Assembly: GCA_015075425.1 (NCBI GenBank)
Contig: JABTUL010000002.1
Coordinates: forward strand, 1-64,000
Direction: 5' to 3'
From: Spirochaetales bacterium
GTDB taxonomy: Bacteria > Spirochaetota > Leptospiria > Leptospirales > Leptonemataceae
DNA: 64,000 nt
The first letter of the stretch is position 1. The number at the start of each line of letters is the position of its first letter. The position numbers and the translations under genes are program-made. Under the pieces are notes generated by a model, which saw nothing but the letters and a program-made list of their open reading frames with translations, had not been told where the DNA came from and searched no databases. Positions 6,529 to 27,331 of the stretch are shown piece by piece.

Positions 6529-6611
6529 GGAGAGGTGTCCGAGTGGTCTATGGTGCACGCTTGGAAAGCGTGTGTACGCAAGTACCGAGGGTTCGAATCC
6601 CTCCCTCTCCG
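6529..6611 (+). tRNA. tRNA-Ser (anticodon GGA)
   Basis: Class II tRNA. The acceptor stem GGAGAGG (6529-6535) pairs with CCTCTCC (6604-6610), followed by discriminator G; there is an anticodon stem CACGC/GCGTG with loop TTGGAAA (anticodon GGA), a long variable arm and T-arm GGGTTCGAATCCC. The CCA end is not encoded. The 3' acceptor strand coincides with the outer end of element I, so the element appears to have integrated at, and rebuilt, the 3' end of this gene. Confidence 0.93.
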
Positions 6612-6679
6612 CAGCTCGGGATGGCTGCAACCCCTCGTGGGTGATGTCACATCGGCAAATTCTTGCTGTCACAGGAACA
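6604..6679 (-). other. Element I left end (att-like)
   Basis: Lies between the recombinase stop codon and the chromosome. Read outward from the stop it holds two TGTGACA repeats, 22 bp apart start to start, separated by the conserved stretch AAGAATTTGCC. Then come CACGAGGGGTTGCAGCC and the terminal GAGCTGCGGAGAGG shared by all five element ends. The last bases are also the tRNA-Ser acceptor strand. Confidence 0.6.
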
Positions 6680-8626
6680 CTAAAGGCTGCTTGAATGGGA
6701 TCTTCTGAGAATGCGTCGGACGGTTGTAGCATTCCACACGCCGCCACGTTTCGTACTGATTAGTTTCCTGTTAAGGTGAGCTGCAATATCACGGAGCGTC
6801 ATGCCTGCGGCGCGGAGTTGCCGGACCATTCGAATAATCTGTTGTTCCGACCGGCTCTGTACCAGCTTTCCACTTTTGAAGTCATAACCATAAGGAACCT
6901 GCTGCGGACGTTTGGCATGGTCTTCGGGAGCTTTCGCAAGGCCATGTCTCTGGATGGCATCGGATACGGTGGACTGACCCACACCTATGCGTCTGGCAAT
7001 GGCATTAGTTGAAAGCCCCTCGTCCTGGTATAGTTTTCTGAGGAATACTCTACTTTTCAAAAGAAGAACGCCTGGTAGTGTGATTCGGTCGGAAACCAGG
7101 ACCAGGCCGCCTTTTGTGAAGGATCGACCATCGGCATGGACCAGCTCCACATTCAGGCCTTCTTCGCCCAGGGTGAGGGTTTGCAGCAGGTCAAAGACTT
7201 TGCGGCACTTTTTTCGGGCTGAAAGCTTGATAAAATCTTTTATACGATCGCAGTAGCTCCGGAAAATGGCAGGATCACCAGTTGCCAGAAGTGTGCTCAG
7301 GTTTTCGGCCTGGCTGCGGAGTTGTTCGGTTTGTTGTTCATTCTCCCGGAGTTGCTCAAGGAGCTTGTCCGCTTCTTTCTCGAAGTGCTTCCGTTGCGGA
7401 GCCCGGCATGGAAAGACTCTGGGTGGTGGCATCGTGCAGCCTTTGCGCAGGGCGGCTTCCTCATGGTCCAGTTGTTTCAGCCGGGATTTGAGAGCCCGCA
7501 GCTGTTTGCCCAGTCCTTCCTGCCGACTTCCAGTAATTCATTAAAATATTCTTTGTCTATCGCCAGCCTGGCCAGCCATTCATCAACCAGTTTGTGCGCA
7601 TCTTCGGCCTCGATAGAATGCAGGCCACCTTCGGCGCAGCGGCCCGGATGGGCATAATAGTATCGTACCTGCCCAGAGCGGCCCGTTCCGCTTTTGCCCT
7701 GGAGCTTTTTGTCGCATCTGGCGCAGCGGATGAGGCCAGAGAAAATATAATTGTGTCTGGGTGAGCGCGGTCCCGGCCCATTGCCGGAAAGGACTTCGCG
7801 GACCTGTTCAAATGTCTTGTCGGTGATGATGGCCTGCCAGGCTCCGGGGACTTCTTCGGTGCCTTCGGTTGTTTTGATTTCTCTGATTCCAATGTAGACG
7901 CGGCTGGTCAGTATGCCGTAGATTCCATTTCGGCTGAGTTTCTGGATTTTAGGATGATCGTATTGATTCTTCAAGACTCTCAGCGTTTCCAGAAGGGAGC
8001 ACTTGCGCAGATAGGTCTGGAAAATGTCCCGGACCAGCTTTGCTTCTTCGGTATCGACCAGGAGCCTGCCCTTGTGTTCGGGATCGCGTTTGTATCCCAG
8101 CGGTTCAAAACCACCGTATGCCAGGCCTCTCTTGCTGCGTTCGTATGCGTTGCGGCGAATTCGGTCGGCAGTCATGTCGCGCTCGAACTCGGCAAAGACC
8201 ATCAGGATGCGCACGACCAGATTGGAGAAGGGAGAAGTGGTGTCGATTTCGGTCTTGAGGCAAACCAGGTCGCAGTTGTGCTGCTGCGTGAATTCAAAAA
8301 TTCCCAGGAAATCCTTGAGAGACCTGGACAATCGGCTTAGCTCCGTGAAGAAAATGGCATCGATCGCACCGCGCTCCACGTCGGCCAGAAGTCTTTTGAA
8401 TTCTGGTCGGTCTATGCTGGAGCCGGAAAAGCCACCATCGACATACGAGCCCACCAGACGGCCCCAGGCTCCACCGGCATTGCGGCGGCGCAGCTCGGAC
8501 GCCAGCATCTGCTCCTGATTTTTCAGTGAACCTTCGGCAACCCGTGCTTGCCCCTCAGTTGAGACACGCACATAGAAAGCCACCCGGCGGATTTTCTGTC
8601 CGCCGGGTGCTGATTTCTCTGGCCAT
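6680..8626 (-). pseudogene. Large serine recombinase, element I left arm (frameshifted)
   Basis: Left-arm copy of the element I recombinase. At least two single-site indels break it: a lost GA dinucleotide just after the start (near 8615), and a shift near 7530 in the coiled-coil region, where the product ends prematurely before reopening at 7432. The right-arm copy is intact at these places, so the gene may be whole in the organism. Domains as for the element II copy at 23363: resolvase catalytic domain, recombinase domain, zinc ribbon, coiled coil, two C-terminal helix-turn-helix motifs. The C-terminal tail RRILRRSHSSSL is specific to element I. Confidence 0.8.
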
Positions 8627-8771
8627 CAGGCTGCCGCGCGTTTCTTGTATCTTTACGCAACCGGCAGAGTCTTCTGCCGGTGCGCTCAATACCTTTACGG
8701 TTCTTGAGCCTGAGCTGGTGGCGCATCTCCCGCATTAGCCTGTCATGGGCGTTCTGGTATATGGCTTCCAT
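8626..8771 (-). pseudogene. Gene B basic peptide, element I left arm (1-base deletion)
   Basis: Reads MEAIYQNAHDRLMREMRHQL and on to RRLCRLRK, then one A is missing from an AAAA run relative to the right-arm copy at 10506, which shifts the last dozen codons. Stop and start codons of its neighbours overlap it by one base on each side (TGATG), as in the intact copies. Probably a homopolymer error rather than a true mutation. Confidence 0.65.
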
Positions 8772-9160
8772 CAGGCCATCCCTGCGAAGAGCGGGAATTG
8801 CTCATGGGTGAGCCGGTCAAAGCCTTCTCTGAAAAGAGCCATGTCCCAGACCGTAGCATGTTCCTGGAGACAGGCTGACACAAAAGCGTCCGTCTGGATG
8901 CTGTGGGCAATGACTTCCACCTGCGCCGGGATGCGTAGATAATACGGGAGCCAGATTTCTGCACTGACGGCAAAGTGCATTTCCCGGTCAGTGAGATCCT
9001 CCGTTGACTGTTCCACGCAAATGGCTTCACCATATTGCAGGCCATACTTGATGAGTGTGATGTCCAGTCTGCGGTTGCCTTTCTGGACCGTAATGCTACC
9101 ATGCTGGCGCAAAGCGGGCATGCCGCCAAAAGCCCCGATGATACGCTGGATTGAATTCAT
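8771..9160 (-). CDS. Gene A (DUF6908-like), element I left arm
   Basis: 129 residues, identical to the right-arm copy except for one residue (Leu versus Arg in ACLQEH/ACRQEH). The motif DREMHFAV...IWLPYYLR followed by HATVWDMALFREGF matches what I recall of DUF6908, a family of unknown function on mobile elements. A consensus AGGAGG lies 6 bp upstream of the start. Its stop codon overlaps the start of gene B, so the operon A-B-recombinase is translationally coupled. Confidence 0.75.
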   Translation of the reverse strand: MNSIQRIIGAFGGMPALRQHGSITVQKGNRRLDITLIKYGLQYGEAICVEQSTEDLTDREMHFAVSAEIWLPYYLRIPAQVEVIAHSIQTDAFVSACLQEHATVWDMALFREGFDRLTHEQFPLFAGMA

Positions 9161-9214
9161 GTTTCCTCCTGTGCTGAACGTGCAGCGCGCCGAGATGACC
9201 TGTTTTTCAGGGGA

Positions 9215-9250
9215 GGTTGCTAAAAAATTTTCCTGATTCTGAAAATTTTT
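9215..9250 (-). promoter_or_regulatory. Leader hairpin, element I left arm
   Basis: In the leader of gene A an A/T-rich inverted repeat (AAAATTTTC...GAAAATTTT, ~10 bp arms) is followed by the small palindrome CCTGAAAAACAGG. The same pair occurs in arms at 10024, 25905 and 26703 but is missing from element III. It may be a leader structure or a protein-binding site. Confidence 0.45.
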
Positions 9251-9329
9251 CGGCGAAGAGGATAAGCGCCTTTCAGGAGGAAGGATTCTGTTTGTTTATT
9301 AAACTTTTAAACATATCATCGCGAACACC

Positions 9330-9386
9330 GGCCCCCAGAAATAAAGGTGGCCCCGCTTTGTGAAGCCACCTTTATTTCTGGGGGCC
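9330..9386. repeat. Core hairpin a, element I
   Basis: Perfect 21-bp arms (9330-9350 and 9366-9386, beginning GGCCCCCAG and ending GGTGG) around a 15-nt loop CCCCGCTTTGTGAAG. The loop is close to the reverse complement of the loop of hairpin e. Compared with hairpin a of element II, five arm positions differ and every change is matched on the opposite arm. Confidence 0.8.
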
Positions 9387-9405
9387 TCTTCCTGCTGAGG
9401 AATAT

Positions 9406-9460
9406 GGGCGGACATTAAACAGGCTGCCGCCGGACGTGAGAGCCTGTTTAATGTCCGCCC
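9406..9460. repeat. Core hairpin b, element I
   Basis: Perfect 20-bp arms (9406-9425 GGGCGGACATTAAACAGGCT and 9441-9460) with a 15-nt loop GCCGCCGGACGTGAG. Element II has a perfect 19-bp counterpart with a similar loop and six compensated arm differences. Confidence 0.8.
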
Positions 9461-9513
9461 ATCGTCACTCGGGATACTGTCAGCGTTTGCAGAATTTCCG
9501 GCAAAGAAACCTG

Positions 9514-9591
9514 CATTTCACGTGCCAGGCCACCGGATCGTTTAAGTTATAAACTTACACGCCTGAATGGTGTGGCCTGGCACGGGAAATG
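9514..9591. repeat. Core hairpin c, element I
   Basis: 20-bp arms (9514-9533 and 9572-9591, core GTGCCAGGCCAC) with one mismatch and a 38-nt loop. It belongs to the long-loop class together with hairpin f. Confidence 0.7.
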
Positions 9592-9691
9592 CTGAAAGCT
9601 GGTTTAAATGCCTGAATGTGAGGCTGATAATCGGTTTCAAGCCAGCATCCCATAGCTGCAAATTCTTCGATCAAAGCACCCTGAAATGCCC

Positions 9692-9748
9692 AAATCCCCC
9701 TGAGCCGGACGGCTTCACCATGCGGGGCCGTCCGGCTCAGGGGGATTT
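9692..9748. repeat. Core hairpin e, element I
   Basis: 22-bp perfect arms (9692-9713 starting AAATCCCCCTGAGCCGGACG, and 9727-9748). Counting the closing C-G pair as loop gives the 15-mer CTTCACCATGCGGGG. This is the most conserved hairpin of the set, almost unchanged in element II and present in inverted orientation in element III. Confidence 0.8.
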
Positions 9749-9845
9749 CTAAGGTCCTGAGGTTTATCAGGCAAACTATTTACTCGGAATAACCCACGGA
9801 GGCTGTGCGACTTCATGTGTTCTTGAGTGTCCACGCCCAGAATCT

Positions 9846-9923
9846 GCAAACATCATGCCCGCCCTTGAATGGATAGGCTCTCAACTAAACACAGGGAAAA
9901 GCCAGGGTGGGCATGATGTTTGC
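9846..9923. repeat. Core hairpin f, element I
   Basis: 20-bp arms (9846-9865 GCAAACATCATGCCCGCCCT; 9904-9923) with one G-T wobble and a 38-nt loop. Element II has the same hairpin with a compensated C-to-G change (GCAAAGATC paired with GATCTTTGC). Confidence 0.75.
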
Positions 9924-9979
9924 TCTGGAGGCCGAACACGAAATCGGTGCCCTGGCAAATATAAAGTACAAAAATAATT

Positions 9980-10010
9980 TTGACAACAGAAGAAGGCAAT
10001 CTTGTATATT
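9980..10010 (+). promoter_or_regulatory. Promoter of element I right-arm operon
   Basis: TTGACA at 9980-9985 and TATATT at 10005-10010 (19-bp spacing; TGTATA at 17-bp spacing is an alternative) lie ~105 bp upstream of gene A in an A+T-rich stretch. No equally good promoter is visible upstream of the left arm. Confidence 0.5.
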
Positions 10011-10116
10011 CGTAAACGGTTGCCGAAAAATTTCCAGAATCAGGAAAATTTTTTAGCAACCTCCCCTGAAAAACAGGTTCTCCGGCGCTGGCTGCACGTT
10101 CAGCACAGGAGGAAAC

Positions 10117-10506
10117 ATGAATTCAATCCAGCGTATCATCGGGGCTTTTGGCGGCATGCCCGCTTTGCGCCAGCATGGTAGCATTACGGTCCAGAAAGGC
10201 AACCGCAGACTGGACATCACACTCATCAAGTATGGCCTGCAATATGGTGAAGCCATTTGCGTGGAACAGTCAACGGAGGATCTCACTGACCGGGAAATGC
10301 ACTTTGCCGTCAGTGCAGAAATCTGGCTCCCGTATTATCTACGCATCCCGGCGCAGGTGGAAGTCATTGCCCACAGCATCCAGACGGACGCTTTTGTGTC
10401 AGCCTGTCGCCAGGAACATGCTACGGTCTGGGACATGGCTCTTTTCAGAGAAGGCTTTGACCGGCTCACCCATGAGCAATTCCCGCTCTTCGCAGGGATG
10501 GCCTGA
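10117..10506 (+). CDS. Gene A (DUF6908-like), element I right arm
   Basis: 129 residues, intact. It starts MNSIQRIIGAFGG after AGGAGG, with the DREMHFAV...WLPYYLR block at residues ~60-80 and VWDMALFREGF near 110. No signal peptide, membrane segment or catalytic motif is evident. Position and coupling (stop TGA overlaps gene B's ATG) suggest it works with the recombinase, for example as a directionality or accessory factor; that is inference. It is 50-100 bp downstream of the leader hairpin and the TTGACA promoter. Confidence 0.8.
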   Translation: MNSIQRIIGAFGGMPALRQHGSITVQKGNRRLDITLIKYGLQYGEAICVEQSTEDLTDREMHFAVSAEIWLPYYLRIPAQVEVIAHSIQTDAFVSACRQEHATVWDMALFREGFDRLTHEQFPLFAGMA

Positions 10507-10652
10507 TGGAAGCCATATACCAGAACGCCCATGACAGGCTAATGCGGGAGATGCGCCACCAGCTCAGGCTCAAGAACCGTAAAGGTATTGAGCGCACCGG
10601 CAGAAGACTCTGCCGGTTGCGTAAAAGATACAAGAAACGCCTGGCAGCCTGA
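10506..10652 (+). CDS. Gene B basic peptide, element I right arm
   Basis: 48 residues, intact, about a third Arg or Lys, with the invariant C-terminus RRLCRLRKRYKKRLAA. Both ends overlap neighbours by one base (TGATG at each junction). Such a short, strongly conserved, highly charged peptide between gene A and the recombinase is probably a nucleic-acid-binding partner; the hairpin-rich core is an obvious candidate ligand, but nothing in the sequence proves it. Confidence 0.75.
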   Translation: MEAIYQNAHDRLMREMRHQLRLKNRKGIERTGRRLCRLRKRYKKRLAA

Positions 10653-12599
10653 TGGCCAGAGAGAAATCAGCACCCGGCGGACAGAAAATCCGCCGGGTGG
10701 CTTTCTATGTGCGTGTCTCAACTGAGGGGCAAGCACGGGTTGCCGAAGGTTCACTGAAAAATCAGGAGCAGATGCTGGCGTCCGAGCTGCGCCGCCGCAA
10801 TGCCGGTGGAGCCTGGGGCCGTCTGGTGGGCTCGTATGTCGATGGTGGCTTTTCCGGCTCCAGCATAGACCGACCAGAATTCAAAAGACTTCTGGCCGAC
10901 GTGGAGCGCGGTGCGATCGATGCCATTTTCTTCACGGAGCTAAGCCGATTGTCCAGGTCTCTCAAGGATTTCCTGGGAATTTTTGAATTCACGCAGCAGC
11001 ACAACTGCGACCGGTTTGCCTCAAGACCGAAATCGACACCACTTCTCCCTTCTCCAATCTGGTCGTGCGCATCCTGATGGTCTTTGCCGAGTTCGAGCGC
11101 GACATGACTGCCGACCGAATTCGCCGCAACGCATACGAACGCAGCAAGAGAGGCACGCATACGGTGGTTTTGAACCGCTGGGATACAAACGCGATCCCGA
11201 ACACAAGGGCAGGCTCTCGGTCGATACCGAAGAAGCAAAGCTGGTCGGGACATTTTCCAGACCTATCTGCGCAAGTGCTCCCTTCTGGAAACGCTGAGTC
11301 TTGAAGAATCAATACGATCATCCTAAAATCCAGAAACTCAGCCGAAATGGAATCTACGGCATACTGACCAGCCGCGTCTACATTGGAATCAGAGAAATCA
11401 AAACAACCGAAGGCACCGAAGAAGTCCCCGGAGCCTGGCAGGCCATCATCACCGACAAGACATTTGAACAGGTCCGCGAAGTCCTTTCCGGCAATGGGCC
11501 GGGACCGCGCTCACCCAGACACAATTATATTTTCTCTGGCCTCATCCGCTGCGCCAGATGCGACAAAAAGCTCCAGGGCAAAAGCGGAACGGGCCGCTCT
11601 GGGCAGGTACGATACTATTATGCCCATCCGGGCCGCTGCGCCGAAGGTGGCCTGCATTCTATCGAGGCCGAAGATGCGCACGAACTGGTTGATGAATGGC
11701 TGGCCAGGCTGGCGATAGACAAAGAATATTTTAATGAATTACTGGAAGTCGGCAGGGAAGGACTGGGCAAACAGCTGCGGGCTCTCAAATCCCGGCTGAA
11801 ACAACTGGACCATGAGGAAGCCGCCCTGCGCAAAAGGCTGCACGATGCCACCACCCAGAGTCTTTCCATGCCGGGCTCCGCAACGGAAGCACTTCGAGAG
11901 AAAGAAGCGGACAAGCTCCTTGAGCAACTCCGGGAGAATGAACAACAAACCGAACAACTCCGCAGCCAGGCCGAAAACCTGAGCACACTTCTGGCAACTG
12001 GTGATCCTGCCATTTTCCGGAGCTACTGCGATCGTATAAAAGATTTTATCAAGCTTTCAGCCCGAAAAAAGTGCCGCAAAGTCTTTGACCTGCTGCAAAC
12101 CCTCACCCTGGGCGAAGAAGGCCTGAATGTGGAGCTGGTCCATGCCGATGGTCGATCCTTCACAAAAGGCGGCCTGGTCCTGGTTTCCGACCGAATCACA
12201 CTACCAGGCGTTCTTCTTTTGAAAAGTAGAGTATTCCTCAGAAAACTATACCAGGACGAGGGGCTTTCAACTAATGCCATTGCCAGACGCATAGGTGTGG
12301 GTCAGTCCACCGTATCCGATGCCATCCAGAGACATGGCCTTGCGAAAGCTCCCGAAGACCATGCCAAACGTCCGCAGCAGGTTCCTTATGGTTATGACTT
12401 CAAAAGTGGAAAGCTGGTACAGAGCCGGTCGGAACAACAGATTATTCGAATGGTCCGGCAACTCCGCGCCGCAGGCATGACGCTCCGTGATATTGCAGCT
12501 CACCTTAACAGGAAACTAATCAGTACGAAACGTGGCGGCGTGTGGAATGCTACAACCGTCCGACGCATTCTCAGAAGATCCCATTCAAGCAGCCTTTAG
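10652..12599 (+). pseudogene. Large serine recombinase, element I right arm (frameshifted)
   Basis: Same protein as the left arm. The frame breaks near 11010-11015 (CTGGTTTGCC region) and again between about 11150 and 11300, then is open from 11301 to the stop at 12599. The left arm is intact across these sites, so the two arms together define one complete ~650-residue protein. Catalytic Ser sits in YVRVSTEGQ near residue 24. If the indels are real, neither arm of element I makes an active enzyme and element I depends on elements II or III. Confidence 0.8.
10671..10699 (+). promoter_or_regulatory. Hairpin in the 5' coding region of the recombinase
   Basis: An 11-bp G+C-rich stem (CACCCGGCGGA / TCCGCCGGGTG, loop CAGAAAA) begins 19 nt after the recombinase ATG. 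Equivalent stems with different loops are in the other recombinases (25270-25299, 27351-27383, 42932-42964). In mRNA it would lie just inside the ribosome footprint and could restrain recombinase translation. Confidence 0.55.
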
Positions 12600-12676
12600 T
12601 GTTCCTGTGACAGCAAGAATTTGCCGATGTGACATCACCCACGAGGGGTTGCAGCCATCCCGAGCTGCGGAGAGGG
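12600..12676 (+). other. Element I right end (att-like)
   Basis: Inverted copy of the left end, base for base: two TGTGACA repeats at 22-bp period, the AAGAATTTGCC spacer and the terminal GAGCTGCGGAGAGGG. Beyond it the sequence becomes repeat P (GCGTTACAGGGGG). Confidence 0.6.
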
Positions 12677-12759
12677 CGTTACAGGGGGCCGGGGGTGGCA
12701 AGCAGAAAATGTTTAAATCGGATTGCAGAAGAACCCTCAGAAAGCCGCGATGAACGACT

Positions 12760-13028
12760 ATGAAGACATACCATTTAAAATTCGTGCCGTATCACGGAAC
12801 TGCGGCTTACTGATCTCCTCGATACGCCTATAGGGCGCATTATCTGGGATGGCGGGCCTGAAACAAGCCCACCTATATCGGTGAAGGCAATGTTCTGGCT
12901 CGTTTCGACAAACATCGCATCAGGTTCCATGCGCCAATTGACGGGTATGTATCCCTGATAGATGATTCGGATGCGAAAGCCAAAAACAGGCGGAGATGCT
13001 GGAGGCACTTTTGCTCCAAAGAAGGTGA
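12760..13028 (+). pseudogene. GIY-YIG-like nuclease, broken (P copy)
   Basis: Same gene as 22926-23198 on the other strand. The reading IIWDG...KPTYIGEGNVLARFDKH...PIDGYVSLIDD...EMLEALLL resembles small GIY-YIG nucleases (Y...YIGEG...R). In both copies a TGA follows the IIWDG block, and this copy carries further indels. It is the first gene outside the element end. Confidence 0.45.
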
Positions 13029-13121
13029 TTGACGTTCGGGTTGAGTCCGACCGCAACGGGAGGAATCCTTTTTCGATAAAACATGGCTGGCGATCGTTGC
13101 GTTAAGGGGCGTGGAAGTGTG

Positions 13122-13560
13122 ATGAATCTACCGCAGCGCAACAAAGCCGTCGCGTTTCTGCTTTTCTAATCGGTTGCCTACAGATGACAGGATACGTGCT
13201 CGGCATTCCGGCTATCCAGATGGCCGGGCGGCTGACCGGTGCGGCTCCACTACCCCTCGTTTTCAACCCCACGAACGGCTACGAATACTGGGCGACTCGC
13301 TGCCAGATTCAGGTCATTTTCAGGCATGGCCAGCAAATGGACCTGAATCTGGACAAAAAGCCGTTGAGCGAATAAACCGCCCGCACCTGCTCAAAATGAA
13401 AGCCATCCTGCCTTTGTCTGTGGCGCCCGTAGCAAATCCTGCCTTTCTGGAGGAAGTCCTGCATTCTCATCTTTGCGGGGCTGGCTACTTCGTGAGGCCT
13501 TCGACCTGCACGAACCGATTCGTTCGGCCACCATTGTGATAAAAAGCCTGATGGTCAGCA
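13122..13560 (+). pseudogene. Exported hypothetical protein, broken (P copy)
   Basis: Left copy of the intact gene at 22358-22831. The signal region is split by a missing T in a T-run near 13163 and another shift follows near 13355-13480. See the intact copy for description. Confidence 0.6.
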
Positions 13561-14373
13561 GTGGAGGCATTCGATTTCATGCGGCCAGTGAGTGCCGGTC
13601 AGGTATTTGTTCTTTTCCGCATTGCGCTGGGATTGTATGTATCTTATTATTTTTAAGTCTGCTGCCATACGTCAGTGAGCTGATTGCCCAACCGCTGTTT
13701 CTGGTGCGCTTTGCTCTGGCCTTTCTGGGGGCGACTGGCATTTTATTTGCTTTTGGCTTCTGGCGGCGCAGCGCTGCCTTGCTGTTGTGGCTGGGCTGGA
13801 TCTGGGCTACAACGCGCATACTCTGGCTGCACATTCCGAGTGATGGCTACATCGGCTGGCTGTTACTGGCCTGTGTTTTATTCCCGGCGGCGAGCTGGAC
13901 CGGATCGGGAAACTGGACTCTGCCGCGACCTTTCTTCCTCGCAGCGGTATCTGTCCGGTCTCAGTTATACGTTAAGCGGCCTGACCAAACTGGAAAGTCC
14001 ACTCTGGCAGAGCGGAGAGGCGCTGGCTATCGTGCTGGCCGGTCCCATTGCCCGAGATTCTGGCAAATGGCTTCTGGACCTCGGGCCTCTCCTGCGTATT
14101 CTCAGTTATGTTAGTCTGGCTCTGGAAATTCTGGCGGGTCCGCTGGCCTTCCTGCGCCTGGGACGCAAAATCGCCTGGATTTCTCTGACGCTGTTCCATA
14201 CAGGAATACTGATTTTTCTGAATGTGGGTTCGGTCAGCCTGGCCATGCTGGTGCTTCAGCTCTATCTATTCGATTCCGATTGGCTGGCCAGCCTGCGCTT
14301 GCGGCGGCGCATAGCTGAGAGTATCAGGGCCAGGAGAACGAGCCAGGCACAGCCGTACCAGAGCATTCCATAG
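13559..14373 (+). pseudogene. HTTM-like membrane protein, broken (P copy)
   Basis: Left copy of the intact gene at 21570-22388. Frames shift near 13650 and near 13880-13950, all at short homopolymers. Its 3' end overlaps the convergent lnt gene by about 110 bp, exactly as in the other copy. Confidence 0.6.
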
Positions 14374-16043
14374 CGCATATAGAATGTTGGCGAGCCTGGA
14401 TTCAGGGGCACATGAAAGACCTGAACACTTTTTGTATAAACGGACGATTTGAGCGGGCCGTAGAAAGCAGGCAATAGTTCCCCGGTCAGACCATAGGCGG
14501 CAGAAATGCCTGAGTTTGTGGCCCGCACCAGCGCCCGCCGGGTTTCAATAGCGCGGATGCGTGCATAATGCGCATGCTGATGCGGCTCGAAGGTATCGCC
14601 ATACCAACCATCCTGAGTCAGATTGATCATGGCCTGTGGCCTTTGCTGCACGAAAAACTGGCGCGGCAAAAGTGTCTCCAGATCCTCTGAACAAATCAGG
14701 GGCATGATGAGGGCATAGTCCAGAGCTTTGCGCTCCGCTAGGTCCAGCCGCAGTTCAGTCGGGGATAGCTGCGTCCAGTCTCTGTAAGTTTTCGGATCAG
14801 CGTCAGTCCGTTTTGCAGGGTGTGTCGTGGTGAAGACGGTGGCGCTATTCCCGGGCCAGTAGCGGTGTAGCCGCTCAAAACGATTGCCAACAAATTGCAA
14901 ATCAAGTAGTTCCATATAGCGTAGTACAGGTAGTTCCTCGCCGGGCAGCAGAGCCTGTTTACGATACGTGGAGCGCTTTCCTCTGCGATCCAGAAAAGTG
15001 GCAGCATTGAATGCTTTTACCGCCGTTCGATTTCCCATCCGCACGGGGTCTCTGGTGTCCTCATTGAAAAGCAGATCCACATTGTGATCGCGCACCAGAC
15101 CCAGCACCAGTTGCTCGAAGACGGGTGCATACAGCGGATAGGCAGGATCGTTGGTATAGGGATTGTTTTCGGTCGAAAAATAGGGGATGGCACCTTCTGG
15201 TAGCACCATAAGGTCAGGCTTCTGGGCGGCGGCTTCTTGTGCCAGAGCGGGAATCGTCCGGTAGAATAGCTCGGTGAGATCCTCCGGCGACAGCCGCTCT
15301 CTGGAGCGCAGCCAGCTGGGCCGTGTGTTGGGCTGGAGGACAGCCACGGATATTGTATCCAGTTTTAGCTGATGGGTCTCCAGTCGCTCTTTGCGAAAGA
15401 CACCGTAGCACAGAGCGCTGGCAAAGAGCAAAGGAACAGGCCAGGCATGCTTCCAGAATGAATCGCGTTTCAGGCTCTGCCAGACACCGGTGCGCGCTTT
15501 CAGGAGCATTCTGGCCATTCGAAAAAGAAAGTAACTGAAACATACCAATAGAAAGGTCAGCCCGTAGATGCCGATCAATTCAGCTGTCTGAAGAGTGTAC
15601 GGATCGACGGCAATGCCCCAGTGCGACTTAAAGAGCGAGGGCATACTCCACTCACTGCCCACGGCGACAAGGGCCAGCCACAGCCAGCGGGGCCGCAGCC
15701 AGCGCAGTTTGTATGCGACGGAACCCAGCAACAAAAAGACCGGATATTTGAGAAAATAGATGATCGCATAGACCAGGAGATCAAGCAGAGACTCCAGATA
15801 GCTGTATTCCATGAAGCGAACCAGAGTCCCCAAAAGCCAGCCGGTAACGATCAGAGCATAGGCCAGCCCGCAGCAGAGCCCGGACCAGAAGAGCCAGAGC
15901 GGCCGCCGCTGAAACTGATGCAGCAAGAACAGCAGTGGCAAAAAGCTGAGGTAGCCCAGAGGCCAGCCAAAAGGATCCAGCGTGAACAGGGCCAGCAGGC
16001 CATGAATGAGAGCTGCGCCTGAAGCAAGCAGCAGATCTTTCAA
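14262..16043 (-). CDS. lnt: Apolipoprotein N-acyltransferase
   Basis: 593 residues. Transfers the third acyl chain to the N-terminal Cys of lipoproteins in the inner membrane. The N-terminal half has 6-7 membrane segments; the C-terminal half is a nitrilase-type domain with the three catalytic positions in order: Glu in VLPEGAIPYF (~residue 275), Lys in YRKQALLPGEELP (~365) and Cys in PLICSED (~445). A last membrane helix and basic tail follow. It is the last gene of a minus-strand operon of exported proteins and overlaps its upstream neighbour (ATGA). The last ~80 codons lie inside repeat P and recur at 21440-21681. Confidence 0.9.
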   Translation of the reverse strand: MKDLLLASGAALIHGLLALFTLDPFGWPLGYLSFLPLLFLLHQFQRRPLWLFWSGLCCGLAYALIVTGWLLGTLVRFMEYSYLESLLDLLVYAIIYFLKYPVFLLLGSVAYKLRWLRPRWLWLALVAVGSEWSMPSLFKSHWGIAVDPYTLQTAELIGIYGLTFLLVCFSYFLFRMARMLLKARTGVWQSLKRDSFWKHAWPVPLLFASALCYGVFRKERLETHQLKLDTISVAVLQPNTRPSWLRSRERLSPEDLTELFYRTIPALAQEAAAQKPDLMVLPEGAIPYFSTENNPYTNDPAYPLYAPVFEQLVLGLVRDHNVDLLFNEDTRDPVRMGNRTAVKAFNAATFLDRRGKRSTYRKQALLPGEELPVLRYMELLDLQFVGNRFERLHRYWPGNSATVFTTTHPAKRTDADPKTYRDWTQLSPTELRLDLAERKALDYALIMPLICSEDLETLLPRQFFVQQRPQAMINLTQDGWYGDTFEPHQHAHYARIRAIETRRALVRATNSGISAAYGLTGELLPAFYGPLKSSVYTKSVQVFHVPLNPGSPTFYMRYGMLWYGCAWLVLLALILSAMRRRKRRLASQSESNR

Positions 16044-16327
16044 GAATCCTGACAGCGGCCTGGCACTTTGCTGAAGCAGTAGAAGGAGCGCAGTAGATAT
16101 TCTTCGCTACAGGCTGAAACCCGAGCGCTGGTTTCAGCGCCAGAAAGCCCGGTTGTAACCTGTACCCGATCAATACAGGCATTCTGCTCCATAAAGAAGA
16201 TCAAATTACACTGCTCGGCCTCAGTCTTCTTTTTCCGGCATTCGGCCCTGTCTGCATCCGATTCGATCGTGCAGGCGGTAAAGGTCGCCAGAATCATAGT
16301 CACCAGAGCCATGTGTTTTCTTTTCAA
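16040..16327 (-). CDS. Small Cys-rich lipoprotein
   Basis: About 95 residues. I choose the TTG at 16327 because AAGGAG lies 7 bp upstream, giving MKRKHMALVTMILATFTAC, a lipoprotein signal with TAC at the lipobox. The mature part has six further Cys, suggesting disulfides outside the cytoplasm. No family recognised. The stop overlaps the lnt start by 4 bp. The neighbour at 16408 has a similar size and Cys spacing and may be a distant paralogue. Confidence 0.65.
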   Translation of the reverse strand: MKRKHMALVTMILATFTACTIESDADRAECRKKKTEAEQCNLIFFMEQNACIDRVQVTTGLSGAETSARVSACSEEYLLRSFYCFSKVPGRCQDS

Positions 16328-16407
16328 TCTATTTCTCCTTGGGCCGCGAAAGTTCAACATTTTGGGACTTCGTGATTATTTCCAGAGGACTCTCCTCAGA
16401 CTTTGCT

Positions 16408-16692
16408 TTAGTTGCATGCAGGCCTCTCTCTAGTGCTTGTTTGGGCAGCGCATGCAAGTTGCAACTGAAAAGTGGTTCCAAGCGCAGTTGAATGGCAGTT
16501 TCTTTTACCTTCCGAATTATTAGATTCACAAGAACTAAGGGTTAAAGAATAAAGAATTCCTATACACTCGATATACTTACGACAATCTGCCTGGTTTTGC
16601 CTTTCAGCTGGACCAGGAACAATTTCATCCCAAAGAAAACATGAACTCAACATGAGCAATGCCGCAAGAGCTACAAATGGACGGAAATTCAC
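16408..16692 (-). CDS. Small Cys-rich lipoprotein
   Basis: 94 residues from a GTG at 16692 that overlaps the stop of the SGNH hydrolase gene (GTGA), a typical coupled start; the longer frame to 16746 lacks a signal. The N-terminus VNFRPFVALAALLMLSSC is a good lipobox. The mature part has repeated Cys (CRKYIECIG, LSSC, NCHS, LACAAQ). Function unknown. Confidence 0.65.
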   Translation of the reverse strand: MNFRPFVALAALLMLSSCFLWDEIVPGPAERQNQADCRKYIECIGILYSLTLSSCESNNSEGKRNCHSTALGTTFQLQLACAAQTSTRERPACN

Positions 16693-17849
16693 CACCAACA
16701 CCTCTGGCGCAACGCACGGGCCAGATAGTAAGAATGAACCTGACACCCGAGTCCATTTAAGTGAACTGCGTCCGCAAAAAATTCATATGGCATGGTATCC
16801 GGCAATTGGGCAAATGAAGTCCGCGGTGTCTTGGGCACAAAATATATCTGCCAGCCAGTCCAAGCAAAAATTGGCTGCTTCCAGCAAAGACGGATATTCT
16901 TAATGCAGAACGGGCAAAAGCCCAAGGTTACAATCCGGCAGGTACTAACCCACTCTTTAATGTAGAGTCGCGGGGGGATTAGCCGTATCGGCTCACCTTC
17001 ACCAAATTCCTCCCATGCATAGCCGTTGAGCGCATCAAAAGTTTCATTGTAAAACTGATACCTGCTGAGATTGAAGGAAGCATCCACATTCACCGGAGGC
17101 AATCCGGCGGCCAACATCAGCGGGGCCGGAATATGCAAACGTTGCCAGCCGACTGACGGATTTACTTTAAAGTGACGCTGGACAATGACATCTTTGCCCC
17201 GCCAGATGGACAGATGATGAACGACTTTCCTTATATGACCATGGATTTCGTGGGCCTCCCTTTGATTGATCAAAGTGCCCAGAATAGGGATTTTTATCAG
17301 GTCCGCTCGGTTCTTGATATCGTTTCCTCCCATCATCATGACAACCCGCGAACCAATGTTGTAGAAGTTAACGTTGCATGCTGGATTTTCGACACATTGT
17401 GCCCATTGGCGCGCTTCGCTTCCCTCTACGGCGTTGTTATGTATCCGTGCTCTGCCTCCCGAACAGGAGTCATCCCGCCACCTACCGAGTAGATACTGTT
17501 GGTGCCATGCACCTACGCGAGACGGCGTTATATCCTCAGGGTGGACGAAAGCCCAAGCCGTACGGCTATCGCCTATCATACTGAAAGAATGCAGATCTCC
17601 ACGAAACCCTCCGGTCAGGCGGCCCTCCCCATCAGGTACTTGCGCGTTGCTTGGAATTTCAAGCACCGCAACCCCATCCACCCCGATCGGGGGAGGCGGA
17701 GGCGGTGGGGGTGGAGGCGGCGGCGGGGGTGGTGGACCGCCACCGGAACAACCAAGGCCGGTCACGCCACAGATCGTATCAGAGATCCCTCCGGCTGTCA
17801 GCGGTTGCACAGCCAACAGGCTAAAAAATAGTACAGGAAGCCTTTTCAT
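16689..17849 (-). CDS. Secreted SGNH-hydrolase-like protein with polyproline linker
   Basis: 386 residues: signal peptide (1-19), a Cys-containing stretch, a run of 16 Pro (residues ~39-54), then a domain with the SGNH blocks: GDSRTAW (block I Ser, ~96), MMGGNDI (block III, ~174) and a C-terminal ADAVHLNG block supplying Asp/His (~366). SGNH proteins are esterases or acetylhydrolases on glycans or lipids; the substrate is unknown. The polyproline tract probably spaces the domain from the membrane or wall. Its start overlaps the upstream gene (ATGA). Confidence 0.75.
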   Translation of the reverse strand: MKRLPVLFFSLLAVQPLTAGGISDTICGVTGLGCSGGGPPPPPPPPPPPPPPPPIGVDGVAVLEIPSNAQVPDGEGRLTGGFRGDLHSFSMIGDSRTAWAFVHPEDITPSRVGAWHQQYLLGRWRDDSCSGGRARIHNNAVEGSEARQWAQCVENPACNVNFYNIGSRVVMMMGGNDIKNRADLIKIPILGTLINQREAHEIHGHIRKVVHHLSIWRGKDVIVQRHFKVNPSVGWQRLHIPAPLMLAAGLPPVNVDASFNLSRYQFYNETFDALNGYAWEEFGEGEPIRLIPPRLYIKEWVSTCRIVTLGFCPFCIKNIRLCWKQPIFAWTGWQIYFVPKTPRTSFAQLPDTMPYEFFADAVHLNGLGCQVHSYYLARALRQRCWW

Positions 17850-18685
17850 AACTGGCCCTCACCATCTGCAAAGTATTCGGGAAACAGTCTCAAATAATTA
17901 TCAATGTCCGTTCTGTTCTTCCAGACATTGCGTGTAATCAGCTCGCGCAGATGCTCCCGCCGAATCTGGATGATGGCCAGCTTTTCTGCTTCCAGCCAGA
18001 GCGGATCGACCAGCTCTTTTTCCCTGTTGTAGTCAATGAGCACATCCAGGCGCGCCAGGTGGCCTATTGTGTCCGTATAACCTCTTTTCAGTTCATAGTT
18101 GCGGCGTGTTCTGGCCCCCCGAATGGCATGCTGAATATCGAGCAAAATCAGGCGCGAAATTTCGTAGGTGCTTAGATCCCCATACTGGTTGCTGTACAGA
18201 CTGGCTGCAAATTCCAGATCCTTGATCAGTGCTTTTTTGCCCACGAATGCCTCTTCCGTCATTTGCACCGGCGCTTCCGGGTCAGGCAGCGTGAGTTCGC
18301 TATCATCGGTAACAGGGAGGTCTTTACGGGCCAAAAGCTCGGTTTTGTAAGCATCGGCCGCGTCGCGCTCTCGATCCGAAGACTTAAATAGCGGATTGGG
18401 TTCGGTGTCGGGATGAAAACAGGGAACTGGATTGCAGAGTGCTGCTACTTCCTGGTAGAAGATGTCGGCGGTAAACTTTTCCGGTCCACGGTTGGGTTCA
18501 CCCGTGCTACCACGCAGGCCATAGGCAACCAGGGCCTGCTTGACTGGATCTCTCTTTTCCACTTCCTTCCATTGCTCTTCCGTGGCCATCATAACCCCGA
18601 GACACTGCGGCATGAGCAGCAGTGCAGTCAGAAGGAGCGGCAGTTTACTTTTACCGCCGGGCACGAATGGTTTCCAGCATTTCAT
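17846..18685 (-). CDS. Exported hypothetical protein
   Basis: About 279 residues from the ATG at 18685, which has GGAAG 6 bp upstream and gives a basic N-terminus followed by a hydrophobic stretch (LPLLLTALLLMPQCLG). The mature part is charged and helical with no motif I recognise. It overlaps the gene before it and the SGNH gene after it, so it belongs to the same operon; an accessory role in envelope maturation is possible only by context. Confidence 0.6.
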   Translation of the reverse strand: MKCWKPFVPGGKSKLPLLLTALLLMPQCLGVMMATEEQWKEVEKRDPVKQALVAYGLRGSTGEPNRGPEKFTADIFYQEVAALCNPVPCFHPDTEPNPLFKSSDRERDAADAYKTELLARKDLPVTDDSELTLPDPEAPVQMTEEAFVGKKALIKDLEFAASLYSNQYGDLSTYEISRLILLDIQHAIRGARTRRNYELKRGYTDTIGHLARLDVLIDYNREKELVDPLWLEAEKLAIIQIRREHLRELITRNVWKNRTDIDNYLRLFPEYFADGEGQL

Positions 18686-19166
18686 AGGATTCTTCCAGCA
18701 AATCTTTTTTCTTCTCGTTATAGATCTTGTCATGCTCGGGCGGTGTGTAGCTTTCCGTCACTTCTGGAGCGTCTTCTTCTGTGAGGCTCGCCATTTCAGA
18801 GCGCCATTCCTCAAGGCCGGCCTGGTTTTGTGCTTCCATCACTTCATCCGTCAGGGGCATCTTATCCGGATATTCCTGGCTGCGGATTAGACCTTCAGCC
18901 GTGCTGATCAAAGTCAGCAGATTGACTTCCATGACTTCCAGCTCAGCGGCACTGTATGAGCCCTGCTTGAGATTGCCGTGGATATGCGCGACTGCCGGGA
19001 CGAGGTCCGCTGCATCCCCGCGCTTGAGGACCGTATCGATGTACTCAGCAACAACACGGGACTGGCGGTCGAACAGGAAATTTTGCGGAGTGTGGGTATC
19101 TTCAAGCTCCTGCGCCAGCAGGGCCGTGACAATGAGACATAAGGCGGAGAGGAACACGATACGCAT
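18651..19166 (-). CDS. Exported hypothetical protein, first gene of the lnt operon
   Basis: About 171 residues from MRIVFLSALCLIVTALLAQ, a plausible signal peptide; a longer frame to 19220 adds unlikely residues. The mature part is acidic and helical, ending ETIRARR. No family recognised. It is divergent from the OmpA-like gene at 19300; the ~130 bp between them, with T and A runs near 19230-19290, should hold both promoters. Confidence 0.55.
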   Translation of the reverse strand: MRIVFLSALCLIVTALLAQELEDTHTPQNFLFDRQSRVVAEYIDTVLKRGDAADLVPAVAHIHGNLKQGSYSAAELEVMEVNLLTLISTAEGLIRSQEYPDKMPLTDEVMEAQNQAGLEEWRSEMASLTEEDAPEVTESYTPPEHDKIYNEKKKDLLEESYEMLETIRARR

Positions 19167-19299
19167 TTTTATCGACCGAATCATGGGAGGCATGCAGTCA
19201 GATCCTTTATACCCTGTCAATAGATTTGTGAAAAAAAAAAAACACTCTGGTACAATTTTTTCTTTACCGTATACTCAACTATACTACAATCTGGCATTC

Positions 19300-20004
19300 A
19301 TGTTCATTCGCAATATACTATGTTTTACTACCGTTTTCTGTGGTTTTATTCCATTTTCAACGGCCTTCATTCACTGCGCGGGTGCAAGGCAGACCGATCC
19401 CTTTCGCTACCAGATTACGATGCAGCCCCAATTTCAGCTGCAGAATGCCGCAGCAATGAATTGCCGGGAATTGTCCCGCAAGCGCATTGTCTACGGCCTG
19501 TTTCATCTTCCTTTGAACCGTTTGGGGCCACTTCCCGTCCAGCGTGGGCCGGAGCTGTTGCGATTTCGGGAAATCCTTACGTGGGGTGATATTGGCTACA
19601 CAGCGCTCGGTTTTCTGGTCAGTTTTATTACCCGCACTCAGATCATGGAAGCCTGTCAACCATCGGCACCTTTTACGCCTTTCGATCGCCCCCTCGACTA
19701 TACCATAGTCTTTCCGGGAAAGAATGCTCTGGTCCCTGATAAAGCCGTTCCCCTGCTGAATGCTCTTGCAGACGAAATGCGTAAAAAACGCGGCTGGCTC
19801 CTCATCGTCGGTCATGCCGAGCCCAGCCCGGAAGCAGCGACGGACCGCGCTCTGGCCACCCGGCGGGCTTTGAATGTGAAAGAAATTCTTACACAATATG
19901 GCGTGCAGGCAACTCGTATGGCAACTCTTTCAGCCGGTCCGGATTGGCCCGGTCGCACGGGCAGCCGGGTAGAATTCTACCTTATCCCGGAGCGTCGACC
20001 ATGA
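19300..20004 (+). CDS. OmpA-like C-terminal domain protein, exported
   Basis: 234 residues from the ATG at 19300. The N-terminus is hydrophobic and contains FIHCAG, compatible with a lipoprotein or signal peptide. The C-terminal ~110 residues fit an OmpA-like peptidoglycan-binding fold: LDYTIVFPGKNALVPDKAVPL, then WLLIVGHAEP and RALATRRALNVKEIL, the usual strand-helix order though the peptidoglycan-contacting Asp/Arg are not all clear. It is the first gene of a plus-strand group with PilZ and HEPN genes, each overlapping the next. Confidence 0.6.
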   Translation: MFIRNILCFTTVFCGFIPFSTAFIHCAGARQTDPFRYQITMQPQFQLQNAAAMNCRELSRKRIVYGLFHLPLNRLGPLPVQRGPELLRFREILTWGDIGYTALGFLVSFITRTQIMEACQPSAPFTPFDRPLDYTIVFPGKNALVPDKAVPLLNALADEMRKKRGWLLIVGHAEPSPEAATDRALATRRALNVKEILTQYGVQATRMATLSAGPDWPGRTGSRVEFYLIPERRP

Positions 20005-20660
20005 TTTCGCTTTTGAGTAGCGAGCGCCGCAAGCGCATCCTCCCACCCCGATCTCTGGTGGTTCTGGGCTGGTTTGTGGCCGTCTTCCCTTTACTGAATT
20101 ATTTCTATCTTGCCAATGCCATGCAGACATCATGGCGCTATCCTACTTTCCTGCTTTTGCCCGGAGTGCGCTGGGTGTTGCCCGCTCTGATCCTGGCCCC
20201 CCTTGCTGCATGGGGACTGCTGCGCATCAAGAAATGGGGCTGGTATGCTTTCCTCTTCTTTGCTCTGTACCTGATGGCGCATAACGGGCTGGCCTTGCTG
20301 AAAAACCCGGCATTCAGCAACGTGGGTGCTCTGGTGAGCGTGACCTTCGGGACAATCATTGCCATTTATATCTGCCAGAAAGACGTTGCGGCTCCCTATT
20401 TTCGGATGTACCCGCGAGGCTGGCGCTACCAGAAGCGCTATCCGGTGCAAATTCCGGTCAAGATCAATGGAAAAGAGTTTCAAACCACTGACCTGAGCGA
20501 TTCTGGATTCTATGTGGAGATGGACTCCACTGAGCGTGAGGCATTGACCGTGGGTCAGGCCTGCCAGGTCGAACTACAGGGCCAGATGCGCGACGCAGGA
20601 GTAGTGCGACTGGATGATACTGGAGTGGGATTTGCTTTGAGGAAAACAGGAAGAAAGTGA
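20001..20660 (+). CDS. Membrane protein with C-terminal PilZ-like domain
   Basis: 219 residues from the ATG at 20001, overlapping the preceding stop (ATGA). Four membrane segments occupy residues ~20-130. The C-terminal part reads as a PilZ domain: basic RYQKRYPVQIPVKI (the RxxxR switch region), then DLSDSGFYVEM, matching the D/NxSxxG motif that binds cyclic di-GMP. It probably couples cyclic di-GMP to a membrane or surface process. Confidence 0.7.
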   Translation: MISLLSSERRKRILPPRSLVVLGWFVAVFPLLNYFYLANAMQTSWRYPTFLLLPGVRWVLPALILAPLAAWGLLRIKKWGWYAFLFFALYLMAHNGLALLKNPAFSNVGALVSVTFGTIIAIYICQKDVAAPYFRMYPRGWRYQKRYPVQIPVKINGKEFQTTDLSDSGFYVEMDSTEREALTVGQACQVELQGQMRDAGVVRLDDTGVGFALRKTGRK

Positions 20661-21439
20661 AGCTACGTACCATCTGGGATTCCGCAATACAGGACAGCAT
20701 CCGTCTGGAAAAACTCTTCTTGGGGCTCCAAGCGCAGAACGAACGCTCTATACGCTCTGAGTTTAGAAACCGCATATTCGATTCCAAAATTGTCACATGG
20801 AACCGTTCTGAGGGGTTATGGAGAGCACGGGGTAAGGATGTCCTCATACTGGGAAAATTAAATGGGAATCTTTCTCATATCGATTTCTCTTCTGAGAACA
20901 CGCAAATTCTTTTGAAGTCTTCCCTCGTCGCGGCGATGGCCGCCGTTGATAAAATTTTGCATGAAGCGTTAATTAAGCACTTCGCTACCCTCGCCAAATC
21001 GGGAAATCTGGACTCAATGATCGATTTCCCGCTGTCGTCAAGCTACAGCATCGCACTCCAATCACGAGAACGCAGTGGAAAAGGTGGTAAGAAGCGCAAG
21101 CGTCCGGGCCATCTGTTCAAGGAAGAAATCGTAGATATTCTATTTGAAAAGACGTTTCTTTCGCAGGCAAAATTAACGCAAGTGTGCTCAATGTGTAACC
21201 TGAAGAAGGTTTTCACAGAATTTTCCCGGAAGCATGCTGCTTTTGGTGCTCCGCTGGACATTCAATCCGCATGGAATGCTGCTTATCGCCGCCGCAATCA
21301 TATAGCTCATGAATGCGATTTAAAGAGAAAGGAAAAAACCAGAAAGGTTACGCAGAATCGGTTTCATGCACCCTCTTATCGCAAAGAGCTCGAATTCATA
21401 CGGGCCTTTGGAGAATTTCTGTCAGACAATCTACATTGA
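20657..21439 (+). CDS. HEPN-domain protein (possible RNase toxin)
   Basis: 260 residues from a GTG overlapping the previous stop (GTGA). The C-terminal region has RRRNHIAHE, the Rx4H signature of HEPN ribonucleases, within a helical domain; CSMCNLKK upstream may be a structural Cys pair. HEPN proteins act as defence or toxin RNases. Its stop codon at 21437-21439 coincides with the junction to repeat P', so the true 3' end may have been cut by the rearrangement. Confidence 0.65.
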   Translation: MKLRTIWDSAIQDSIRLEKLFLGLQAQNERSIRSEFRNRIFDSKIVTWNRSEGLWRARGKDVLILGKLNGNLSHIDFSSENTQILLKSSLVAAMAAVDKILHEALIKHFATLAKSGNLDSMIDFPLSSSYSIALQSRERSGKGGKKRKRPGHLFKEEIVDILFEKTFLSQAKLTQVCSMCNLKKVFTEFSRKHAAFGAPLDIQSAWNAAYRRRNHIAHECDLKRKEKTRKVTQNRFHAPSYRKELEFIRAFGEFLSDNLH

Positions 21440-21681
21440 CTGCCGCCTATGGTCTGACCGGCGAACTATTGCCTGCTTTCTACGGCCCGCTCAAATCGTC
21501 CGTTTATACAAAAAGTGTTCAGGTCTTTCATGTGCCCCTGAATCCAGGCTCGCCAACATTCTATATGCACTATGGTATGCTCTGGTACGGCTGTGCCTGG
21601 CTCGTTCTCCTGGCCCTGATACTCTCAGCTATGCGCCGCCGCAAGCGCAGGCTGGCCAGCCAATCGGAATCGAATAGATAG
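21440..21681 (+). pseudogene. 3' fragment of lnt
   Basis: The last ~80 codons of lnt (from TAAYGLTGELLPAFYGPL to the basic tail SESNR), nearly identical to the end of the intact gene at 14262. The fragment starts directly after the HEPN stop codon and has no start codon. It marks the inner edge of the inverted duplication. Confidence 0.85.
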
Positions 21682-22388: not shown

Positions 22389-22831
22389 TGCTGACCATCA
22401 GGCTTTTTTATCACAATGGTGGCCGAACGAATCGGTTCGTGCAGGTCGAAGGCCTCACGAAGTAGCCAGCCCCGGCAAAGATGAGAATGCAGGACTTCCT
22501 CCAGAAAGGCAGGATTTGCTACGGGCGCCACAGACAAAGGCAGGATGGCTTTCATTTTGAGCAGGTGCGGGCGGTTTATTCGCTCAACGGCTTTTCTGTC
22601 CAGATTCAGGTCCATTTGCTGGCCATGCCTGAAAATGACCTGAATCTGGCAGCGAGTCGCCCAGTATTCGTAGCCGTTCGTGGGGTTGAAAACGAGGGGT
22701 AGTGGAGCCGCACCGGTCAGCCGCCCGGCCATCTGGATAGCCGGAATGCCGAGCACGTATCCTGTCATCTGTAGGCAACCGATTAGAAAAAGCAGAAACG
22801 CGACGGCTTTGTTGCGCTGCGGTAGATTCAT
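22358..22831 (-). CDS. Exported hypothetical protein, partner of the HTTM-like protein
   Basis: 157 residues from the ATG at 22831, with GGAAG upstream. N-terminal signal (AVAFLLFLIGCLQMTG, possible lipobox IGC). The mature part contains APLPLVFNPTNGYEYWATRCQIQV. A clear paralogue is encoded at 44597-45007 next to element III (SGAAPLPLVFSPIHGYDYWASRCWIQV). Function unknown. Confidence 0.65.
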   Translation of the reverse strand: MNLPQRNKAVAFLLFLIGCLQMTGYVLGIPAIQMAGRLTGAAPLPLVFNPTNGYEYWATRCQIQVIFRHGQQMDLNLDRKAVERINRPHLLKMKAILPLSVAPVANPAFLEEVLHSHLCRGWLLREAFDLHEPIRSATIVIKKPDGQQWRHSISCGQ

Positions 22832-22925
22832 CACACTTCCACGCCCCCTTAACGCAACGATCGCCAGCCATGTTTTATCGAAAAGGATTCCTCCCCGTTG
22901 CGGTCGGACTCAACCCGAACGTCAA

Positions 22926-25318: not shown

Positions 25319-25321
25319 GAC

Positions 25322-27328: not shown

Positions 27329-27331
27329 GTC

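Follow-up and report, generated by a model that had tools for sequence, protein, structure and literature searches.

The question raised by this locus is whether the tRNA gene at which its first element ends is the attachment site of a mobile element moved by a large serine recombinase (LSR), and how much DNA such an element comprises. The window, that is, the whole 64-kb stretch of DNA that was analysed, contains one tRNA gene called by ARAGORN, tRNA-Ser(GGA) at positions 6529-6612 of the plus strand; on the basis of this call and of the junction sequence, it was taken as the chromosomal target, with its 3' end forming the left junction (T|e1). The first-pass annotation had described a terminal sequence common to five element ends and overlapping the acceptor strand of this tRNA. 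The sequence was found as the 12-mer CCTCTCCGCAGC (the core) in five exact copies, three direct (6604+, 23283+ and 40923+) and two inverted (12664- and 29347-), and the first copy begins inside the tRNA, with its first base in the 3' strand of the acceptor. An exact search of the whole 4.13 Mb assembly returned the same five copies and none elsewhere. When up to one mismatch was allowed, shuffled sequences gave a mean of 0.83 copies and none of the 100 shuffles reached five. It had also been noted that the other ends lack a tRNA, and this holds for all four (12664-, 23283+, 29347- and 40923+), where no tRNA precedes the 12-mer; they are internal or unit-unit junctions. Each core forms a junction X|e, in which X is the tRNA, a, a', b or b'. 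Judging from these surroundings, the five cores are not equivalent: one is the tRNA junction, two are unit-unit junctions (23283 and 40923) and two are internal inverted junctions (12675 and 29358).

The recombinase is represented by several broken copies and by one unbroken frame of 651 aa (23363-25318, minus strand). In the latter, a PF00239 (Resolvase) match of 118.4 bits is followed by a PF07508 (Recombinase) match of 66.2 bits, both over the cut-off; the zinc beta ribbon (PF13408) scored 25.2 bits against a cut-off of 25.3. The C-terminal part contains an HTH and a second copy of the Recombinase domain (25.4 bits, cut-off 21.1). The nearest NCBIfam models were XisF and CcrA/B/C, all of them far below their cut-offs; the CcrA/B/C models gave 90-114 bits against cut-offs of 700-900, so that the protein falls outside the Ccr family by this measure. 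An AlphaFold model was set aside because of a mean pLDDT of 55.7. The Resolvase and Recombinase domains agree with the earlier view that the element joined to the 3' end of tRNA-Ser(GGA) is moved by a serine recombinase, and attP x attB integration is its predicted activity.

The region of 6.6-43.5 kb of the window is a chain of inverted repeats, in which unit 1 (E1 and cargo A, 6604-23282) and unit 2 (E2 and cargo B, 23283-40922) stand head to tail. E1 (6604-12675) is composed of 2.65 kb arms and a centre of 767 bp, as delimited by a repeat match between 6603-9254 and 10022-12676. Its left arm e1 (6604-9254, plus strand; inverted match to 10022-12675) opens with the exact core of the T|e1 junction (6604-6615, plus strand). 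On the minus strand, this arm carries the left LSR copy (6680-8583), present as two open frames (6680-7432 and 7477-8583), and upstream of it a small ORF of 129 aa (8771-9160) with no Pfam family over the cut-off. The single-copy centre c1 (9255-10021, 767 bp, no strand assigned) is followed by the inverted arm e1' (10022-12675, minus strand), which contains a second LSR copy with frames 10652-11077 and 11301-12599 (+) and closes with the core of the internal inverted junction a|e1 (12664-12675, minus strand). Segment A (12676-23282) likewise consists of inverted arms, here of 1.8 kb around 6.9 kb. Arm a (12676-14503, plus strand; inverted copy at 21440-23282) includes the 3' 242 bp of an lnt-like gene (LNT_N, CN_hydrolase), the frame of which is whole on the a side (14262-16043, minus strand). 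The single-copy part of cargo A (14504-21439, 6.9 kb, no strand assigned) leads to arm a' (21440-23282, minus strand), in which the final 242 bp of this gene alone are repeated (21440-21681, 98.8% identity). The products of cargo A are the lnt-like protein and an HTTM protein.

Unit 2 begins with the core of the a'|e2 junction (23283-23294, plus strand). E2 (23283-29358) has 2.67 kb arms around 746 bp: the left arm e2 (23283-25951, plus strand; inverted match to 26698-29358) holds the unbroken LSR, the centre c2 spans 25952-26697 (746 bp, single copy, no strand assigned), and the arm e2' (26698-29358, minus strand) contains a broken LSR, part of the N-terminal stretch of which is nearer to e3 than to e2. 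After the core of the internal inverted junction b|e2 (29347-29358, minus strand), segment B (29359-40922) comprises 1.66 kb arms, b (29359-31016, plus strand) and b' (39258-40922, minus strand), around the 8.2 kb single-copy cargo B (31017-39257, no strand assigned). Genes encoding a type III methyltransferase (498 bits), a type III restriction enzyme (427 bits), an OLD/GajA-like ATPase (156 bits to Old), a TIR protein (114 bits to PDC-S66) and an HNH nuclease were found in cargo B, together with an ORF without a Pfam family (38450-39244). Based on these matches, cargo B looks like a compact defence cluster.

A third unit begins with the core of the b'|e3 junction (40923-40934, plus strand) and has the arm e3 (40923-43553, plus strand) without a right arm; its LSR (41040-42983, minus strand) is 88% identical to that of E2. 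To the right of this arm, a PIN-domain ORF (43645-44061) and a DUF6364 ORF (44058-44321), together 43645-44321 on the minus strand, form a toxin-antitoxin-like pair that probably lies in the remnant of unit 3. Direct cores at 23283 and 40923 bound the first two units; the point at which the whole array ends on the right was not located. A partial core at 45561 was considered as the right end of the array and rejected, as it has two mismatches and is equalled by four other places in the window. As a separate observation, a hairpin-like sequence is common to the centres of E1 (9707-9748) and E2 (26339-26380) and to a position right of the E3 arm (44532-44573), and a likeness to it also occurs in the centre of the first element of the second array, described below.

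This arrangement allows us to propose how the units move. In order to enter the tRNA site, each unit would form a circle of four parts: two inverted segments of 4.3-4.5 kb (cargo end, core, LSR operon), the short single-copy part c of about 0.75 kb, and the long single-copy cargo of 6.9 or 8.2 kb. Recombination of the circle junction a|e with the tRNA site T|downstream would then give T|e ... a'|downstream, and the second junction would stay intact, in inverted orientation, inside the integrated unit. Integration through one of the two circle junctions would thus produce the three direct and two inverted cores seen here. The circular form is inferred, and it yields predicted junctions that can be compared with the internal ones. 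The predicted circle junction of unit 1 (a'|e1) differs from the internal inverted junction at 12675 at 0 of 120 nt, and that of unit 2 from b|e2 at 1 of 120 nt, so that, after integration, the junction predicted for the circle of a unit is still present within that unit, in inverted orientation. Behind tRNA-Ser, units 1 and 2 stand in tandem with the truncated third unit, and, provided that each arrived by way of the tRNA end, the newest would be the one nearest to the tRNA. Flipping of c or of the cargo between inverted cores would alter no junction; if direct cores recombined, whole units would be excised or their cargo would be exchanged.

A further point is how large the moving unit is. 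The first-pass annotation had let the first element end in the tRNA; the junction itself stands, but the extent does not, as the moving unit appears to be larger and to comprise E1 together with segment A. Its smaller outline corresponds to a view that we regard as unlikely, namely that each of E1, E2 and E3 is an element in its own right, about 6 kb in length and with long inverted repeats at its ends, and that segments A and B are separate DNA. Such elements would account for the inverted arms of about 2.65 kb, with a core at either end, by which E1 and E2 are each delimited, but would leave unexplained why A and B also have near-identical inverted arms that run up to the core. We consider it likely that a family of integrative elements, moved by the LSR, uses tRNA-Ser(GGA) as its attachment site and that each complete unit is one element with doubled inverted ends. 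What can be taken directly from the sequence for this reading is the set of junctions and inverted repeats, the agreement between predicted and internal junctions, the position next to a tRNA, and a second array at a tRNA-Asn gene.

The second array was found in the same genome, on contig C1, at tRNA-Asn(GTT) (C1:1207062-1207135, locus L014). Its first inverted repeat, of 2.77 kb with arms of 96.9% identity, begins at 1207124, within the tRNA, and has the core TACCGGGGGAGCAG at both ends; at the junction g'|f2, the g side is common up to ACCGGGGGAGCA, after which f1 and f2 diverge. The architecture is, by these junctions, that of the window array at another tRNA, and this unit logic is a further point that independent 6 kb elements do not explain. 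At both element junctions on a tRNA 3' end, tRNA-Ser and tRNA-Asn, the tRNA is intact. The element side of F1 contains an inverted near-copy of the anticodon and T arms of tRNA-Asn (C1:1207106-1207163, L014 12106-12163); with up to two mismatches allowed, a search of the whole assembly returned the pattern from the tRNA and the two f1 arms and from no other place, each time with 0 mismatches. It can be noted that a read-through transcript past tRNA-Asn could pair with the tRNA through this near-copy. After f2, broken LSR pieces and short direct repeats (C1:1220000-1223700, L015 5000-8700) are followed by an ORF for an rve-domain transposase (L015 7832-8632), so that this array looks decayed on its right side.

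To find further insertions, relatives of the LSR were sought elsewhere. Outside this genome, three loci had at least 375 LSR residues matched, with 39-70% identity, and in all three a tRNA 3' end lies about 20-115 bp from the end of the match: a Spirochaetia MAG at tRNA-Ser(GGA) (70%; L029/L033, counted once, as G004:C7 and VFLI01000051.1 were taken as one contig on account of their equal length and match), an Elusimicrobia MAG at tRNA-Asn(GTT) (L034, 42%) and L018 at tRNA-Asn(GTT) (39%). Other insertions, which the annotation had proposed to look for at tRNA-Ser genes, thus lie at tRNA-Asn in the same genome and at tRNA-Ser or tRNA-Asn elsewhere. A more distant relative (L019, 25%) lies 256 bp from tRNA-Asn. 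No tRNA was found in the stretches examined for the C-terminal matches L024 (45%, 132 residues) and L021 (53%, 40 residues), which are L030 and L031, or in that of L020 (35% over 129 residues). A genome scan gave 56 other LSR loci with 23-37% identity; 18 of them, all at or below 30%, were submitted to ARAGORN, and three had a tRNA anywhere in the stretch and none within 1 kb. In a scan of the phylum, 3 of 392 genomes matched the LSR at E<=1e-80, namely the window's own, G004 and G058. Among viral contigs, 160 pattern matches included no confirmed LSR relative, and among the matches listed for plasmids (21 records) and phages (114), 20 each, identity was below 37% and LSR coverage at most 57%. 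The C-terminal HTH with the second Recombinase copy was considered as a mark of the whole tRNA-associated group and rejected, since the L034 and L018 matches stop near LSR residue 500.

The tRNA association could in principle come from an element with a tyrosine integrase, the LSR being a passenger, since, according to a passage of PMC5704250, tyrosine integrases commonly target the 3' ends of tRNAs, and this genome has nine PF00589 matches. However, none of the nine lies in the window, the one nearest to the C1 array is a piece of 56 positions located 4.7 kb upstream of tRNA-Asn and outside the array, and it is the LSR itself that adjoins a tRNA at five loci. We regard this origin as highly improbable.

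The doubled layout, in which the integrase and the attachment junction occur twice in opposite directions, looks unusual for such islands and is complete in one assembly only, at two loci. An assembly artefact was weighed against it, in which fold-back reads, or a repeat joined wrongly, would have built up the layout around a single simple LSR island. In favour of an artefact, homopolymer indels make up many of the differences between arms, a pattern known from uncorrected long reads, the contig begins just 6.5 kb from the tRNA, and the G004 contig ends inside the element, with no second contig carrying either of the two stretches tested. On the other hand, the distance from the core of G004 to the end of its contig is 2678 bp, roughly that of one arm, the layout recurs at two loci, and the arms are separated by single-copy centres and cargo. 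Within units, arm identity is 99.0-99.4% for e1/e1' and 96.5-97.5% for e2/e2', and between units it is lower, at 77% for e1/e2 and 83% for e2/e3; the arms a/a' differ by 21 substitutions and 13 indel events over 1844 alignment columns and b/b' by 18 substitutions and 8 indel events over 1668. In the E2 arms (25000-25290), 34 of the 43 differing sites fall at third codon positions, and the likeness of the right arm over alignment columns 1800-1950 is 92.7% to e3, against 80.7% to the left e2 arm. These E2 copies are therefore read as real and distinct, an artefact is regarded as quite improbable, and the stretch of the right-arm LSR that is nearer to the E3 LSR than to its partner arm is a sign of exchange between units.

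The preferred reading, an LSR-moved element at the tRNA, leaves the claim that the element rebuilds the 3' end of the tRNA. Here, the position of the crossover was estimated from dyad symmetry, scored as ungapped symmetric matches over 42 positions with the centre between discriminator base 73 and the next base; the centre and span were picked after the inverted copy at F1 had been seen. Among the tRNA|element sites, the scores were 18 at tRNA-Ser E1, 28 at tRNA-Asn F1, 18 at L018, 16 at L019 and 16 at L034, and symmetry was absent at the tRNA-Ser site of G004 (8 of 42). Of 40000 random positions, 1897 reached at least 16, 478 at least 18 and none 28. The 73/74 centre was the best one tried at three of the six sites (Ser E1, Asn F1 and L018), and other centres scored higher at L019 (17) and L034 (18). 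Six cargo|element junctions had no symmetry at centre 0 (7-12 of 42), and with the centre one base leftward a|e1 scored 16 and g|f1 20 of 42. Gapped local alignment was set aside in favour of the ungapped fixed-centre score, as it found a significant copy of the tRNA half at Asn F1 alone (0 of 2977 random pieces reached the score) and none at Ser E1 (369/2976), G004 (1754/2917), L018 (782/3000), L019 (332/3000) or L034 (184/3000).

Some symmetry is expected of an LSR site, since the attP of a Listeria integrase is described in a part of PMC3783163 as pseudo-palindromic, with a 25 bp half-site and crossover at the central dinucleotide. The likeness at F1 extends about 50 nt from the centre, past the 25 bp half-site given there (PMC3783163). 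On the basis of the symmetry, the crossover would lie near tRNA position 73/74; if it takes place at the central dinucleotide, as in the same source (PMC3783163), the acceptor strand in the tRNA would be the host's own. Moreover, of 22 genomes searched for the tRNA-Ser pattern, among them that of the window, 10 had a match; seven family genomes have an exact match and no LSR match at E<=0.001, so that the same CCTCTCCG strand is present there. From the dyad centre and these LSR-free genomes, the acceptor strand most likely belongs to the host itself and was probably not rebuilt. Thus, the junction at the tRNA 3' end is retained from the earlier claim, rebuilding is not fully supported, and 'rebuilds' is probably too strong a word.

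A syntenic empty site was not found when the flanks of 19 loci were compared with those of the window; beyond the tRNA itself, there was one match of 26 bases (L104), which indicates no shared gene context with the window flanks. The relatives searched included no genome of the same genus. The cyclase-like gene right of the array (45696-47720) was rejected as a synteny anchor, as it belongs to a many-copy family with matches in 21 of the 22 genomes.

If the proposed reading is true, there is an LSR group that targets tRNA 3' ends in more than one bacterial phylum, a rare choice among serine recombinases, and a type of island in which every element has two attachment junctions in inverted orientation. 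Recombinase and cargo modules could then reassort, one cargo here being rich in phage-defence genes, and tRNA-directed serine integrases suggest themselves as tools. The use of a tRNA, which had been called unusual for a serine recombinase, is termed rare in a passage of PMC3218068 that names phiRSM1 and mycobacterial elements; in a part of PMC5704250, specific serine-recombinase IMEs are said to disrupt dispensable genes. The word 'tRNA' is absent from the main text of PMC10083194, and a section of PMC12884075 names genomic-island databases, e.g., TIGER/Islander. The sequence context makes it most likely that an LSR uses the tRNA-Ser(GGA) junction as its attachment site, and targets of this kind are rare but known.

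The filamentous phages phiRSM similarly use a serine recombinase at the 3' end of tRNA-Ser. Their core in tRNA-Ser, TGGCGGAGAGGGT, has in reverse complement CCCTCTCCGC in common with the window site (PMC3816273, in part). Unlike the units described here, they have a small resolvase/invertase-type recombinase and a phage genome, and the relevant passages of PMC3816273 mention no doubled inverted arms. The mycobacterial AICEs also integrate into a tRNA gene (tRNA-Leu) by serine recombinases, but they are conjugative, belong to Actinobacteria and use another tRNA, and the passage on them in PMC3218068 mentions no inverted doubling. Compared with the tRNA-Ser target, which is of a known rare kind, the doubled-junction unit is the less ordinary part. 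No description of it was noted among the papers listed by a literature search on doubled and inverted layouts and related terms, which is not proof of absence.

The staphylococcal SCC (Ccr) islands are moved by LSRs, can stand in tandem at one site and vary in cargo, and the weak matches of the LSR include CcrC, CcrB and CcrA. However, the target of SCC is rlmH, with one attachment junction per unit, whereas the junctions of the window family lie at tRNA-Ser(GGA) and tRNA-Asn. The yeast 2-micron plasmid and plastid genomes are circles in which two inverted repeats split two single-copy regions; the 2-micron plasmid has a recombination site in each repeat, and in plastids a repeat boundary inside a gene produces a truncated copy. 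The repeat boundary within the lnt-like gene suggests, by analogy with these plastid boundaries, that a' was copied from a. It is possible, although we would lean against it at present, that the units are a distinct kind of integrative element, a four-part circle like that of plastids or the 2-micron plasmid with a complete attachment junction and integrase operon in each inverted repeat, and with inversion and swapping of modules in a tRNA-anchored array. In such a circle, either junction would integrate to the same product and the second, inverted junction would be kept, so that modules could change orientation or be exchanged where they stand; as for the inverted near-copy of the tRNA half found at the end of the element, it would either belong to the recognition site or be left over from the inversion by which the repeats arose. 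The likeness to the 2-micron plasmid and plastids is one of architecture and implies no descent: the units described here are integrated in the chromosome, and their repeats carry the recombinase.
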